Program-made: the position numbers and the translations under genes | Notes under the pieces: generated by a model | What the model was told of the DNA's origin: nothing | The model's input: only the letters and a program-made list of their open reading frames with translations | The model's database searches: none | Part shown: positions 2,717 through 9,194 of the stretch, piece after piece | Layout: every line of letters begins with the position of its first letter | How positions within the stretch are numbered: position 1 is the first letter of the stretch | Source: an uncultured bacterium | GTDB lineage: Bacteria > Cyanobacteriota > Vampirovibrionia > Gastranaerophilales > Gastranaerophilaceae | DNA: 64,000 nucleotides | Direction: 5' to 3' | Assembly: GCA_950022695.1 (NCBI GenBank) | Contig: CATLLN010000002.1 | Location: 1 to 64,000 of the forward strand

Positions 2717-5245
2717 ATGAATAAGATTATGTCAGAAAATATTAAAAACGAAAAATTTTTAACAATTCACGGACACTTTTACCAGCCGCCAAGAGAAAAC
2801 CCGTGGCTTGAAGCAATTGAGCTGCAAGACAGCGCACTTCCTTTCCACGACTGGAACGAAAGAATTTGCAAAGAATGCTATAATCCAAACTCTGTTTCAA
2901 GAATCGTAGATAACAGAAATAGGATTCTTGATATCGTTAACAACTACGAATATATGAGTTATAATTTTGGTCCAACTTTGTTATCTTGGATGGAAGAGTT
3001 CGCTCCGTTAACTTATGAAAGAATTATTAAAGCCGATATCGAAAGTATCTCAAAACACAGCGGGCACGGTAATGCTATGGCACAGGTTTATAACCACATC
3101 ATTATGCCGCTTGCAAATTACCGCGATAAAGAAACCCAAGTTAAATGGGGTATTCGCGATTTTGAATACCGCTTTGGCAGAAAACCAGAAGGAATTTGGC
3201 TTGCTGAAACCGCAGTAGACGATGAAACATTAAAAGTTCTTGTTGACAATGGGATTAAATTCACAGTACTTTCCCCTTATCAGGCATTAAAAATGAAAAA
3301 ATCTACAGATAAGGAATGGCAAGACGTAAGCTGGGGAAATATTGATCCTGCACGTTCATACAAATACACAATAAAAAGTGATCCGACAAAATCAATTGAT
3401 TTATTCTTCTATGATGGCGCAATCTCCCGTTCTGTTGCATTTGATGAACTCTTAACAGACGGAAACAAATTCATAAAACGCCTAAAAGAAGGTGTATCAG
3501 AACTTCGCGATTATCCGCAATTAATAAACATTGCAACAGATGGCGAAAGTTACGGACACCACACAAAATTCGGCGATATGGCTTTATCTTACGTTTTAAA
3601 AATTAAAGCAGAAGATGAAGGTTTTAAAATCACAAACTACGCTGAATACTTGGACAAATACAGAAGCAACTACGAAGTTGATATCAAACAAGCTTCATCA
3701 TGGAGCTGCTTCCACGGTGTAGGAAGATGGTCTGATGATTGCGGATGTTCAACAGGCGGACATCCGGGATGGAATCAAAAATGGAGAAAACCACTAAGAG
3801 AAGCTCTTGATTATCTTCGCGACCATTTTGCTGAAATTTTTGAACAAGAAGGAGCAAAATACTTCAACACAGATGTTTGGGAAGTTAGAAACCGTTACAT
3901 TGAAGTAATCCTAGACAGAACCTACTCTAAAATCAAAAAATTCCAAAAAGATAATTTCAAACCTGACCTATCTGAAGAAGAAAAAATCAAAGGTATGGAA
4001 CTTCTTGAAATTCAGCGACAAGCTATGCTTATGTACACTAGCTGCGGCTGGTTCTTCTCTGAAATTTCAGGTATTGAAACCGTTCAGATTATGAAATATG
4101 CAGCCCGTGCTATGCAATTGGCTTCAAAATTCTCTAAAGAAAACTTTGAAGAAAAATTCCTTGATATTTTAGCCCAGGCAAAAAGTAATATTCAAGAATT
4201 TGGTACAGGCAAAGACATATACGAACGCTTCGTAAAACCGTCTGTTGTAACATCAAAACAAATTGCCTGCCTGTGGGCAATATCTTCACTATATCAAGAC
4301 TTTGACGATGAAGAAGATGTTTACTGCTACACCGTTAAGCGAAATGATTATCAAAAAGTTCAAAAAAATAACGCAAATTTTGTAATAGGTAATATTGAAA
4401 TCCGTTCAAAAGTTACATTACAAAAAGCTAACCTTGTATTTGCACTTATGCAATACTCAGGTGGAGATTTCCACTGTGCAATAAAAGAATATTCAACAAA
4501 TGAAGAATATCAGGAACTTAAAACTTCTCTGATAAAAACATTTATGCTAACTCCGCTAACAGAAATCATAAGAGCACTTGATGAAAAATTCGGCAAAGAA
4601 TACTTTACACTTAAAGACATCTTTATCGAAGAAAGAAAGAAAATCTTACAAGTTCTGTTAAAAGACCAGCTTCAAAAATTCGCAAATACCTACAAAGAAA
4701 TGTATAATCAAGGCAAAGGCTCTATTTATCATATGCAAAATCTGGGCTTGGAAATCCCTAACGAATTTAAGATTTCTGCAGCGTATGCTCTTAGCCAGCG
4801 CTACAACGATCTTCTGTCTCATTCTGACGGATTTGTAGAACGAGCTGTTATTCAAGAAATCAGAGATATTAACTTTGAATCAAAAAAAATGAATATCGAT
4901 ATAGATAAAACTCCATCAAATAAAAGCTTTGCTAAAAAAATCATTACTAATTTAAACAGACTTACCAAAAGTTTTGAGATTCAGCAAGCTGACACTATTG
5001 TAGAACTATTCGATATCATAGAAAAACTTGATCTTCAAATAGATATATCTGAAGCTCAAAATATTTATTATAATAAAATTTACCACCGCATCGGCGATAT
5101 TATTGAAAATAACCTTGAATCTCCAAAAGATAAAGATATTAAATTCATTAATATTCTGCTTGAAATAGGACGTAAATTAAATATTAACGTAGACTTTTAC
5201 AAAGTAAAACTCGATAAATTAAATATGTATATTAAAAAGGATTAG
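2717..5245 (+). CDS. Glycoside hydrolase family 57 / DUF3536 protein
   Basis: 842 residues. It opens with HGHFYQPPRENPW, typical of GH57 proteins carrying a DUF3536 C-terminal region and common in cyanobacteria and relatives. GH57 enzymes act on alpha-glucans (amylase, branching or 4-alpha-glucanotransferase activity) through a Glu nucleophile and an Asp acid. The candidates seen are E164 in WLAETAVDDETL and D275 in TDGESYGHH. The C-terminal half is helical and charged. There is no signal peptide, so it is probably cytoplasmic and may work on glycogen-like storage polymer. The start is uncertain: AAAGG is very close to the first ATG, and an ATG 12 nt later is possible. An intrinsic terminator overlaps the stop codon. 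Confidence 0.88.
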   Translation: MNKIMSENIKNEKFLTIHGHFYQPPRENPWLEAIELQDSALPFHDWNERICKECYNPNSVSRIVDNRNRILDIVNNYEYMSYNFGPTLLSWMEEFAPLTYERIIKADIESISKHSGHGNAMAQVYNHIIMPLANYRDKETQVKWGIRDFEYRFGRKPEGIWLAETAVDDETLKVLVDNGIKFTVLSPYQALKMKKSTDKEWQDVSWGNIDPARSYKYTIKSDPTKSIDLFFYDGAISRSVAFDELLTDGNKFIKRLKEGVSELRDYPQLINIATDGESYGHHTKFGDMALSYVLKIKAEDEGFKITNYAEYLDKYRSNYEVDIKQASSWSCFHGVGRWSDDCGCSTGGHPGWNQKWRKPLREALDYLRDHFAEIFEQEGAKYFNTDVWEVRNRYIEVILDRTYSKIKKFQKDNFKPDLSEEEKIKGMELLEIQRQAMLMYTSCGWFFSEISGIETVQIMKYAARAMQLASKFSKENFEEKFLDILAQAKSNIQEFGTGKDIYERFVKPSVVTSKQIACLWAISSLYQDFDDEEDVYCYTVKRNDYQKVQKNNANFVIGNIEIRSKVTLQKANLVFALMQYSGGDFHCAIKEYSTNEEYQELKTSLIKTFMLTPLTEIIRALDEKFGKEYFTLKDIFIEERKKILQVLLKDQLQKFANTYKEMYNQGKGSIYHMQNLGLEIPNEFKISAAYALSQRYNDLLSHSDGFVERAVIQEIRDINFESKKMNIDIDKTPSNKSFAKKIITNLNRLTKSFEIQQADTIVELFDIIEKLDLQIDISEAQNIYYNKIYHRIGDIIENNLESPKDKDIKFINILLEIGRKLNINVDFYKVKLDKLNMYIKKD

Positions 5246-5356: not shown

Positions 5357-6295
5357 ATGCAAGTTCCGGTACAAAATGTAAAACAACAAAACAATCAATA
5401 TAATAACAGTTTTAACAGTACTGCGCAAACTCAATGCTGTACTGCTCCAAATCAGCAGACACAATGCCAGCAAACTTATCCGCAAGGCTATTTACCACCA
5501 CAGCAAACTGTTTACCCACAATATCAACCTGCACAAAATCAAAATATGCAGATTCCGGCAACAGCTTCAGGTGTAAATATTCAGATATTTAACCCGTCAG
5601 TTGCAACACCTGGTGCTAAAGCTCCGACTTACAACGTAAATGCACCTTGTTATCCATCAGGATACTATACAAGCTCTGTCGGCGCTGATGGAAAACTTCA
5701 CCCGAACAACGGAAGTAACAACCCGCACACCGGTGACAACATCAACAACGGAACAAACAGTGGTACAATAGGTGATAATAATAACAACACCTATACAACA
5801 AATACAAACACAACTAATAACACAACAACTTCTGCAAACTCAATAGAAAAAGAAGAGAATAAAAAGAAAACAGAAAAGCGCAAAATCATACAATTAACAG
5901 ATGAATATATCAAAAATCTTGAAAGCTATTTAAACAGCCAAGATAAAGGTGTAAGACTTAATGCCGCAAAAGAAGTTTACGCAAGACTTGAAGAAGATGA
6001 ATCAAGACATGACGATAAGGCATTAACTGCACTTGTTAACAAAATGCTTCAAGACCCGTCTGAAGAAATTAGAGTAATAGCACTATCTGCGCTTGACAGT
6101 AAAATAGTTACAGGTGATGATTACACAGTAAATGTCTTAAAAAATATGCAGCAAAACAACAACGGATACGGACAAGATGCAGTTGATGCAAGCAATATTC
6201 TGTTAAAAATGTCAGGAAAACAGGTCGAAAAAGAATTTGAAGTGAAAGATACTCCAAAGAAAAAAGAAGAACCAAAAGAAAGTAAAAAGGCATAA
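5357..6295 (+). CDS. Q/N-rich low-complexity protein with HEAT-like C-terminal half
   Basis: 312 residues. The first 165 or so are rich in Gln, Asn, Pro, Tyr and Thr (QQNNQYNN, NNNNTYTTNTNTTNNTTT) and are probably disordered. A charged helix follows, then about 100 residues of helical repeats (GVRLNAAKEVYARLEEDE; PSEEIRVIALSALDSK), which fit HEAT repeats. The C-terminus is Lys/Glu-rich. No signal peptide or membrane segment is present. It is followed after 2 bp by a membrane-protein gene, so the pair is an operon. HEAT repeats usually mediate protein contacts; the actual function is unknown. Confidence 0.72.
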   Translation: MQVPVQNVKQQNNQYNNSFNSTAQTQCCTAPNQQTQCQQTYPQGYLPPQQTVYPQYQPAQNQNMQIPATASGVNIQIFNPSVATPGAKAPTYNVNAPCYPSGYYTSSVGADGKLHPNNGSNNPHTGDNINNGTNSGTIGDNNNNTYTTNTNTTNNTTTSANSIEKEENKKKTEKRKIIQLTDEYIKNLESYLNSQDKGVRLNAAKEVYARLEEDESRHDDKALTALVNKMLQDPSEEIRVIALSALDSKIVTGDDYTVNVLKNMQQNNNGYGQDAVDASNILLKMSGKQVEKEFEVKDTPKKKEEPKESKKA

Positions 6296-6297
6296 TT

Positions 6298-6777
6298 ATG
6301 AAGATACTCGGCAGTATATCAAAAGCACTTAAAGGAAATGCAGGCAAATACATTACAAAAGGTGTAGGTTTTGCAGCACTTGGGCTTGTTGCATCAGATG
6401 CTCATTACATTGGAAAACTTCAAGCTGATCTTTATGCAAGTGAAAAAGATGCAAAAGCTGCCAGTTACTATCTAAATAATTCAATGTATACAACTAATAT
6501 GAGTAAAGTCGAAGACGGAATAAGAAACGCGGCATACGAAATGGAACTTGATCAAGGCTGGAGAAGATTCTTCAATCTTGGAATAGGCTACGTTAAAGGA
6601 TTTACTTCAATGCTTGTTTCACACGTAATCCCGTTTGGACTTGGCTTAGGTGCACTATTAGCAAAAGGTAAAGCCGCAAAAATCTGCGCCGGAGCATTTG
6701 GGGTTTATGCACTTGGCAAAGTCGTTAAAGATTTCTTTGGAATAGGTGTACCAGGTAACGGATTAAATATTAAATAG
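6298..6777 (+). CDS. Small Gly/Ala-rich membrane protein, unknown
   Basis: 159 residues with a hydrophobic stretch near the N-terminus (GVGFAALGLVASDAHYIG) and a glycine-rich pair near the C-terminus (VIPFGLGLGALLAKG and ICAGAFGVYALGKVV). The middle is soluble and helical. Translation is coupled to the preceding HEAT-like gene. Its 3' end overlaps the convergent trmD gene by 8 bp. It is not a family I recognise and is probably lineage specific. Confidence 0.65.
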   Translation: MKILGSISKALKGNAGKYITKGVGFAALGLVASDAHYIGKLQADLYASEKDAKAASYYLNNSMYTTNMSKVEDGIRNAAYEMELDQGWRRFFNLGIGYVKGFTSMLVSHVIPFGLGLGALLAKGKAAKICAGAFGVYALGKVVKDFFGIGVPGNGLNIK

Positions 6778-7462
6778 AATCTTTTAAATATTTTTCGTAC
6801 AAATCCGGACGTCTTTGTTTAGTTCGTTCTATTTGAGCGGCATTTCGGAATTCATTTATTTCTTTGTGGTTGCCGTTTAATAAAACCTCAGGAACTTTAT
6901 ACCCGCGAAAATCACGCGGTCTTGTATACTGCGGATATTCTAAAAGCCCGTTTGAAAAACTATCATCTTCTGCTGATTCAATTTTCCCTAAAGTTCCATC
7001 GATTTTACGGCTTACAGAATCAATCAGGCAAAGTGCCGGTAATTCACCGCCTGTCAGAACAAAATCCCCGATAGAAACCTCTTTCGGCTTAATAATTTCA
7101 CGAATACGCTCGTCAAACCCTTCGTAATGTCCGCAAAGCATGATTATCTGGTCATATTTAGCTAAATCAAGAACCAGATTTTCCGTTAAAGGTTCTCCTT
7201 GAGGGGAAAGCATTACAGTGATATAGTTATCAAGCTTTTCAACACTTTCATACGCATCAACAAACGGCTGCGGCATCAAAACCATTCCCGCACCACCTCC
7301 ATAAGGGGTATCATCAACCTTTTTATGCTTATCTTCTGTAAAATCACGTGGATTAACAGTATTAAGAGTGAAAACTTCCCCTTCTTTTGCGCGTTTCATA
7401 ATACTAAAATTACAATATGATTCTATAAATTCAGGAAAAAGCGTTAAGACATCAAACCTCAT
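6770..7462 (-). CDS. trmD: tRNA (guanine-37-N1)-methyltransferase TrmD
   Basis: 230 residues, standard length. It transfers a methyl group from S-adenosylmethionine to G37 of tRNAs that read CNN codons and so prevents +1 frameshifting. The trefoil-knot SPOUT motifs are visible: YGGGAGMVLMP, LCGHYEGFDERI and GDFVLTGGELPAL. The ATG overlaps the rimM stop codon (ATGA), giving tight translational coupling with rimM as in many bacteria. Confidence 0.97.
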   Translation of the reverse strand: MRFDVLTLFPEFIESYCNFSIMKRAKEGEVFTLNTVNPRDFTEDKHKKVDDTPYGGGAGMVLMPQPFVDAYESVEKLDNYITVMLSPQGEPLTENLVLDLAKYDQIIMLCGHYEGFDERIREIIKPKEVSIGDFVLTGGELPALCLIDSVSRKIDGTLGKIESAEDDSFSNGLLEYPQYTRPRDFRGYKVPEVLLNGNHKEINEFRNAAQIERTKQRRPDLYEKYLKDSI

Positions 7463-7974
7463 TCCAACAACCCTTCCAAATTATTTATCATAATTTTTTT
7501 GTTTTCAATATCAACAACAGGAACAATTGCACTGACAAAAGGAATTAAGCAGATTTTTTTAGAACTGGTTTTAACCGAAATCAAATCACTTGCTCCGTTA
7601 TTTGAAACTCCGATTACAAAACCCAGTTTTTTACCATCATTATTATCAAAAACTTCCAATCCGACAAGTTCATCAATTAAGAATTCATCTTCATCAAGAG
7701 TTTCTCTTATAACCGATTCATCCACAAAAAGCAAATTGCCTTTATATTCTAAAATATCGTTTATAGAATTAATACCTTCAAACTTAACTATCATCAAGTT
7801 TTTATTAGGTCTGACTGATTCTATATATAACGGCACGTATTCGCTATTATTTTTCAAATAAACAGTATCAAGCGAGAGAAAAAAATCTTGCTGACTTTTC
7901 GAACAGCCGACCTTAGCTTCGCCTTTTATTCCGTGAAAATTAACAATTTTACCAACTGAAACATACTTGACCAT
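7459..7974 (-). CDS. rimM: Ribosome maturation factor RimM
   Basis: 171 residues. RimM helps mature the head of the 30S subunit. The N-terminal barrel begins VSVGKIVNFHGIKGEAKV, the family hallmark, and the C-terminal PRC-barrel is seen in DELVGLEVFDNNDGKKLG and the IPFVSAIVPVVDIE segment. It starts 2 bp after the RG-rich protein gene and overlaps trmD by 4 bp, so these three form one operon. Confidence 0.95.
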   Translation of the reverse strand: MVKYVSVGKIVNFHGIKGEAKVGCSKSQQDFFLSLDTVYLKNNSEYVPLYIESVRPNKNLMIVKFEGINSINDILEYKGNLLFVDESVIRETLDEDEFLIDELVGLEVFDNNDGKKLGFVIGVSNNGASDLISVKTSSKKICLIPFVSAIVPVVDIENKKIMINNLEGLLE

Positions 7975-7976
7975 AA

Positions 7977-9047
7977 CTATTCTTCAGCAGGAGTTCCCTC
8001 TGCAACTTTAGGTTTTCTGCCTCTTTTTTTCTTTGGTTCTTCCTCTGCTGCAACTTCAGGCGCTTCTTCTTTTACAGCCTTTTTAGCTTTTGTTTTCTTT
8101 TCTTCGGATTTTTGTTTTTTAAATTCTTCCGGAGCATCTTCACGTTCTTGGTTCCAACGTTCCATACCCATTTGAGCTCGAACAAGACCAATACCTACGT
8201 GAACTCTCCATTCATCCATTTTCAATTGAGCCGCAATAATTTTGTGACATCCGATTGGAGGAAGCGGCAATAACGGTTCATAAAGCATTTTAATTGCATT
8301 TAACTGATCCGGTGTAATTGCAAGCTTACGTTTCGGGAACGGTAATTTCGGAAGCATCATTTTTTGTCTTACAAGGTTGATGCCGAAAAATACTTTTCTT
8401 GGTTCCAGACCAATTTTTTCACCGATAACTTCGTGCGCATCAGGATTAGGTAACGGAAGCATCAATTTATACAACAATTCAATTTGTTCTAATTGTTCTC
8501 TGCTTACTAATAATTGCTTAGGAGCAGCGTTTCTGTTATTAGGTCTTCTATTATTGTTAAATCTGTTATTTTGCGGTCTTCTTTGTTGGAATCCGCCTTG
8601 TCTGTTATCTCTGTTGTAACCGCCTTGACGATTATTGTTATAACCACCGCGATTATATCCGCCCTGACGATTATCACGGTTGTAGCCGCCTTGATTATTG
8701 TATCCGCCGCGGTTATACCCACCTTGGCGATTATCTCTATTATATCCGCCTTGACGGTTGTCACGATTGTATCCGCCCTGGTTATTATATTGACGTTGAG
8801 GTCTGTTATACGGTCTTTGGTTATCATCACCGCCGCTTGAATAGCTGCTGTAGAACTGTCTACCTTCTGATGAATAGCTGTTTCTTGGCTGTTCTTGAGA
8901 TTCTGTTGCAGAAGCAGAAGCTTCAGGTGCTTCAGATGAATTAACCATCATTTTTTTATCCGGGTACAAACAATCCGGGCAAATGACTCTTTTAGGGTTT
9001 TTTGTTTCAAACTCACGACCGCATTTAATGCACTTGTTTACATACAT
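7977..9047 (-). CDS. Zinc-ribbon, RG-repeat, duplicated-helical-domain protein with AT-hook-like tail
   Basis: 356 residues in four parts. Residues 1-30 are a CxxC...CxxC zinc ribbon (CIKCGREF, CPDCLYPD). Residues about 75-170 are a disordered Arg/Gly/Asn/Tyr repeat (GGYNRDNRQ and variants, about nine copies). Residues about 172-290 are two tandem copies of a roughly 50-residue helical domain; compare REQLEQIELLYKLMLPLP with PDQLNAIKMLYEPLLPLP, each ending (G)IxLVRxxM. The Lys/Glu tail ends with KKRGRKPK, an AT-hook-like motif. Everything suggests nucleic-acid binding. It lies directly upstream of rimM-trmD, where a KH-domain RNA-binding protein often sits in other bacteria. Role in RNA or ribosome biology is inferred. 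Confidence 0.8.
   Translation of the reverse strand: MYVNKCIKCGREFETKNPKRVICPDCLYPDKKMMVNSSEAPEASASATESQEQPRNSYSSEGRQFYSSYSSGGDDNQRPYNRPQRQYNNQGGYNRDNRQGGYNRDNRQGGYNRGGYNNQGGYNRDNRQGGYNRGGYNNNRQGGYNRDNRQGGFQQRRPQNNRFNNNRRPNNRNAAPKQLLVSREQLEQIELLYKLMLPLPNPDAHEVIGEKIGLEPRKVFFGINLVRQKMMLPKLPFPKRKLAITPDQLNAIKMLYEPLLPLPPIGCHKIIAAQLKMDEWRVHVGIGLVRAQMGMERWNQEREDAPEEFKKQKSEEKKTKAKKAVKEEAPEVAAEEEPKKKRGRKPKVAEGTPAEE
8575..8800 (-). repeat. Coding tandem repeats for GGYNRDNRQ units
   Basis: Degenerate 15-27 bp units inside the zinc-ribbon protein gene encode GGYNR, GGYNRDNRQ and GGYNNQ. The near-identical DNA copies could recombine or slip, so unit number may vary between strains. Confidence 0.75.
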
Positions 9048-9194
9048 AATAAAAGCCTCTTAATTAATAAAAAATAACTCATAATAAAATAATTTAAGGT
9101 AACATTCCTCACAATATAAATCGATTTCAAATAAAAAATATAACTTATAGTCATATTTTAACATGAAAACAAAATATGCGCAAGTGTTAATAAT

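Follow-up and report, generated by a model that had tools for sequence, protein, structure and literature searches.

What is the role of a protein that combines a zinc ribbon, a low-complexity linker, two copies of a helical domain and a basic tail, and whose gene, in the 64,000-nucleotide stretch of DNA analysed here (the window), lies directly upstream of rimM and trmD? The original prediction argued from this position for a ribosomal or RNA-related function in place of the usual KH protein, and likened the RG region to eukaryotic RGG proteins that form condensates. The reading frame is a real gene and no chance product, being present and conserved in hundreds of genomes, and a search of its own genome found it in single copy. 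The product, here called the RG protein, is organized as follows.

7977–9047, minus strand: whole gene, 356 amino acids, ATG start; zinc ribbon, apparently disordered linker, two homeodomain-like domains and basic tail.
8955–9047, minus strand: N-terminal C4 zinc ribbon, residues 1–31 (Cys6, 9, 23 and 26), from the sequence and the orthologue consensus.
8529–8816, minus strand: low-complexity linker, residues 78–173, from composition and eight GGYN units.
8349–8522, minus strand: homeodomain-like domain 1, residues 176–233, three helices, from Pfam PF00046, AlphaFold2, structure matches and hhalign.
8157–8327, minus strand: homeodomain-like domain 2, residues 241–297, a duplicate of domain 1, from repeat comparison, AlphaFold2, structure matches and hhalign.
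8007–8033, minus strand: AT-hook-like basic tail KKKRGRKPK, residues 339–347, from the sequence and orthologues.

The zinc ribbon, the paired helical domains and the basic tail had all been recognized correctly. The ribbon, a candidate metal site, has CxxC-x13-CxxC spacing with both CxxC pairs present; its orthologue consensus reads MY.NKC.KCG.EFETKNPKRVICP.CLYPD and its similarity to known Pfam and NCBIfam zinc ribbons is weak. The two 50-residue repeats are identical at 19 of 53 positions (36%, E 1e-12; 98.7% in profile–profile comparison) and represent a true duplication. In the 96 residues of the linker there are 26 N, 20 R, 18 G, 12 Q and 10 Y. The earlier count of about nine GGYNR repeats was slightly generous, as the linker holds six exact GGYNR, eight GGYN and nine GG[YF] motifs, together with 15 NR; the eight GGYN units compare with a mean of 0.01 and a maximum of 1 in the shuffled protein. 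Likeness to eukaryotic RGG/RG proteins, of which FUS and the hnRNPs are examples, holds for the R/G/Y-rich low-complexity composition, with G, R, Y and Q/N abundant and R far above K. It is less close for the motif itself: the units are mostly QGGYNRDN, RGG occurs only twice, and no RRM was found.

Profile searches did find relatives for the repeats. Homeodomain PF00046 was the sole Pfam match of the window's tandem domain, although its score (20.7 bits, E 3.6e-4) lies below the cut-off of 22.9, and it was the only consistent match across diverse orthologues (60 of 64). The best of these, L195, reached 24.8 bits, above the same cut-off, while nine others scored singly gave 14–22 bits. The match ends at profile position 45, short of the helix 3 core. 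PF00046 exceeded its cut-off in none of 14 control genomes, in a coarse search that misses the RG gene too; the six-frame search of the protein's own genome, whose first look is too coarse here, listed a chance match only and not the RG gene. When PDB sequences were compared with the single RG sequence there was no match, and a PDB profile search gave one weak match only, the plant homeobox protein HD-ZIP PDF2 (9lpe, E 0.25). In profile–profile comparison by hhalign against small sets entered by hand, the repeats reached 90% and 77% with homeodomains, compared with at most 19% for the LuxR, sigma-r4 and resolvase sets. When both repeats were merged in a single profile, however, the homeodomain match fell to 27%, which counts against deep confidence.

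It should be emphasized that the domains are here called homeodomain-like, and not homeodomains, because the helix-3 signature is altered and structure alone does not separate homeodomains from other helix-turn-helix (HTH) proteins. In place of WFxNxR (W48, F49, N51, R53) the repeats contain GINLVR and GIGLVR, such that W48 is replaced by G, F49 by I and N51 by L, with R53 kept. What is shared with PF00046, and with its closest solved representative, the DUX4 double homeodomain (5zfy), is the three-helix HTH with a three-residue turn, the hydrophobic pattern of helices 1 and 2 and the start of helix 3, and the tandem arrangement. In contrast with that family, the RG protein is bacterial, carries a zinc ribbon and an R/G/Y linker, and has a conserved helix 1–2 loop, LPLPxPxxH.

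Structure prediction, which had been proposed as a check, modelled a three-helix HTH for each repeat (pLDDT 85 for the pair, 88 for repeat 1). The predicted helices of repeat 1 span residues 183–195, 204–212 and 216–229 and recur in repeat 2, so that the HTH fold of both can be predicted with good confidence. In a Foldseek search of the PDB with the pair the best five matches were DUX4 double homeodomains, at a non-significant E of about 0.04, followed at rank six by a SelB–SECIS RNA complex, the RNA-binding winged helices of SelB matching too. VIA-align returned homeodomains mixed with other HTH proteins (Z 5–6, all below 6). These E and Z values mean that the likeness in fold goes no further than what HTH proteins in general would show. 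In structure comparison a similar three-helix fold is seen in bacterial HTH proteins, those of LuxR/GerE type among them, but the RG repeats have no Pfam GerE match and an hhalign probability of only about 2% against a small LuxR/GerE set entered by hand. A search of BFVD viral structures gave non-significant matches only, mostly HTH-type or unnamed. The HTH fold class of the repeats is already known, and the similarity of homeodomains to Hin recombinase has long been recognized (PMC4901127).

Conservation is uneven along the protein. Averaged over 165 loci, identity to the window protein is 97.7% in the zinc ribbon and 93% in the tandem domains, but it falls to 59% in the linker and 51% in the tail; the figures are comparative and not absolute, as many loci are near relatives or duplicates. 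In the same genomes RimM, TrmD and Dtd average 71%, 79% and 75%, and the partner of the more conserved tandem domains must therefore be strongly constrained. Linker sequence varies freely in orthologues while its make-up is kept (G 17%, N 17%, R 13%, Q 12%, Y 8%; R:K 7:1), as would be seen if selection on a disordered linker acted on its composition, while the folded parts on either side had a fixed partner. It could be argued that the tandem domains serve to dock the protein on RNA polymerase or the ribosome, with only the linker and tail touching nucleic acid. The contrast in identity between the folded parts and the linker and tail would fit such docking, as would the loss of the canonical base-contacting N51 and a residue count by which domain 2 is without net positive charge. 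This docking role is nevertheless improbable, and four helix-3 residues speak against it: R53 and K55 of domain 1 and R44 and R53 of domain 2 never vary, which is what contact with nucleic acid would predict. Homeodomain contact positions of helix 3 are indeed found among the invariant residues of both repeats (46, 50, 51, 53 and 55 in repeat 1; 44, 46, 47 and 53 in repeat 2).

The tail resembles AT-hook proteins in its basic core of GRP/GRK type. A [KR]RGR[KP] motif is present in 93 of 121 unique orthologues and canonical RGRP in 18 of the 121, and some have the canonical KKRGRPKK; the window form differs in being RGRKP, and some outer members lack the motif. In one orthologue (L198, gene around 4716–5102, minus strand) an extended tail contains two AT-hook-like motifs.

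Domain content and predicted structure thus suggest that the RG protein is probably nucleic-acid-binding, with DNA or RNA as target. Our best explanation, which we hold tentatively, is a single-copy, lineage-specific nucleic-acid-binding protein that would act on DNA. The tandem homeodomain-like domains would set helix 3 against DNA, with a further contact in the minor groove from the AT-hook-like tail, while the R/G/Y/N-rich linker and zinc ribbon would allow the protein to cluster with itself or with RNA. The protein would in this way bridge or concentrate nucleic acid, most likely in the nucleoid or at genes being transcribed and translated. Clustering is plausible by analogy, the sticker content of R/Y-rich linkers being the reason for such behaviour. 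The PF00046 matches among orthologues, the hhalign and DUX4 results, the invariant helix-3 residues and the frequency of the tail are consistent with DNA. The sub-cut-off score of the window protein, the loss of W48 and N51, the generic fold, the weak basicity of the HTH pair by residue count, the SelB matches and neighbouring translation genes count against it. As the best match is a DNA-binding homeodomain, the domains alone do not imply RNA, which weakens the original prediction. The HTH pair and the AT-hook-like tail put DNA slightly ahead, with RNA nearly as likely.

A serious possibility is that the RG protein binds RNA in translation or ribosome maturation, as an RNA chaperone that has replaced KhpA/KhpB in function; its linker, R-rich, K-poor and Tyr-rich, would bind RNA like RG-rich regions, and the HTH pair would dock on structured RNA as do the winged helices of SelB in the SECIS complex. 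The best profile match, a DNA-binding domain, argues against this. The operon partners are listed here.

7459–7974, minus strand: rimM, downstream in the operon (Pfam RimM; conserved order).
6770–7462, minus strand: trmD, downstream in the operon (Pfam tRNA_m1G_MT; conserved order).

The RG gene ends 2 bp before the rimM ATG, and rimM and trmD overlap by 4 bp. The order dtd–RG–rimM–trmD, which favours an RNA chaperone, is kept throughout those family f1 loci that have enough flank, apart from a few such as L194 and L195. The rimM–trmD position emphasized originally therefore holds for this family, to which it is almost limited, but is not common to the outer families. There several neighbours are again translation genes (rpsF–ssb, rlmN, yebC, gatB, mnmG, queA), but others, a serine dehydratase and a serine peptidase, are unrelated to translation. 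Beyond trmD two genes on the opposite strand (5357–6295 and 6298–6777) are often kept in relatives; one product is of low complexity with a C-terminus that is weakly HEAT-like, and the other has no Pfam match.

Upstream of the start codon two further elements were located.

9155–9183, minus strand: likely own promoter, TTGCGC, 17-bp spacer and TG-extended TAAAAT, from upstream alignment; kept in the genus.
9107–9126, minus strand: leader element AATYGATTTATAYTGWGAGG, highly conserved, between promoter and start codon.

The promoter was not listed by a consensus scan. The 5′ leader is about 107 nt and A/U-rich, and AATYGATTTATAYTGWGAGG has a single exact copy in the genome. The conserved leader with its gene-specific element suggests possible autoregulation and is counted in favour of the RNA reading. 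The leader is, against that, without conserved RNA structure: a structured RNA leader was rejected, there being no consensus fold and no Rfam match, and the AAATCGATTT palindrome of the element is not kept in all species. A regulon operator was likewise discarded, as there is one exact copy only and near-matches are at control level. In the leaders of four outer-family loci (L189, L190, L191 and L193) GCAAGG...CCTTGC inverted repeats were seen by eye; none was seen in f1.

The proposal that the RG protein stands in place of the usual KH protein has a fitting distribution on its side. Among 146 genomes of the class, KhpA/KhpB exceeded the cut-off in 0 of 82 with the RG protein, compared with 40 of 64 without it; nor did it exceed the cut-off in the genome from which the window comes. 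The two appear mutually exclusive across the sampled class, possibly through a single clade-level replacement. All 40 KhpA/KhpB genomes belong to families f8 and f13, however, and families f10–f12 lack both KhpA/KhpB and the RG protein. The pattern tracks entire families and may go back to just one event in evolution. Fisher's test gives an extreme value, which is not usable as a probability because related genomes are counted as independent. The distribution fits replacement of the KH protein, although clade membership confounds it. Replacement in the same operon slot was rejected, since KhpA in the class adjoins ffh and not rimM–trmD, and the RG protein and the KH gene therefore do not share a slot. 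In the protein's own genome rpsP lies elsewhere, without a KH neighbour over 90 aa. The fold of these KH-domain RNA chaperones (PF13083) is unrelated to that of the RG protein, which had no PF13083 match among Pfam hits at E up to 1.

The RG protein is specific to the Melainabacteria, in which it occurs in the Gastranaerophilales and some sister families; its hosts are gut-dwelling non-photosynthetic cyanobacteria. It is present in about 82 of the 146 sampled genomes of the class (83 matched, G122 being set aside as a low-complexity match only) and in 53 of 60 near relatives, or 38 of 39 among good genomes. The closest named relative is a 97% identical protein labelled uncultured Gastranaerophilales (Melainabacteria). 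Sampled genomes of families f8 and f10–f13 lack the protein, and no convincing diverged copies were found in the families without it. Among the matches listed from a profile search that covered 386 genomes of the phylum, no RG protein lay outside the class, and none was found in photosynthetic cyanobacteria; a search with the single sequence, covering 291 genomes, also gave none outside the class. Relatives sought in phages, plasmids and viral contigs were absent.

Homeobox proteins have been described as occurring across the eukaryotes, and the presence of several copies of one DNA-binding domain in a single chain as a trait of eukaryotes that prokaryotic transcription factors lack (PMC2937223). 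Among the papers searched, none dealt with homeodomains in Melainabacteria or with such a protein. That the tandem domains are true bacterial homologues of eukaryotic homeodomains, through old common descent or transfer, in a condensate-capable protein that organizes DNA or RNA and replaced a widespread KH chaperone in one clade, is unlikely. With its two homeodomain-like domains and its sticker-rich, apparently disordered linker, the conserved RG protein of this bacterial gut lineage would offer a testable exception to what has been described for homeobox proteins and for repeated domains, and it might show how the lineage manages without KhpA/KhpB.
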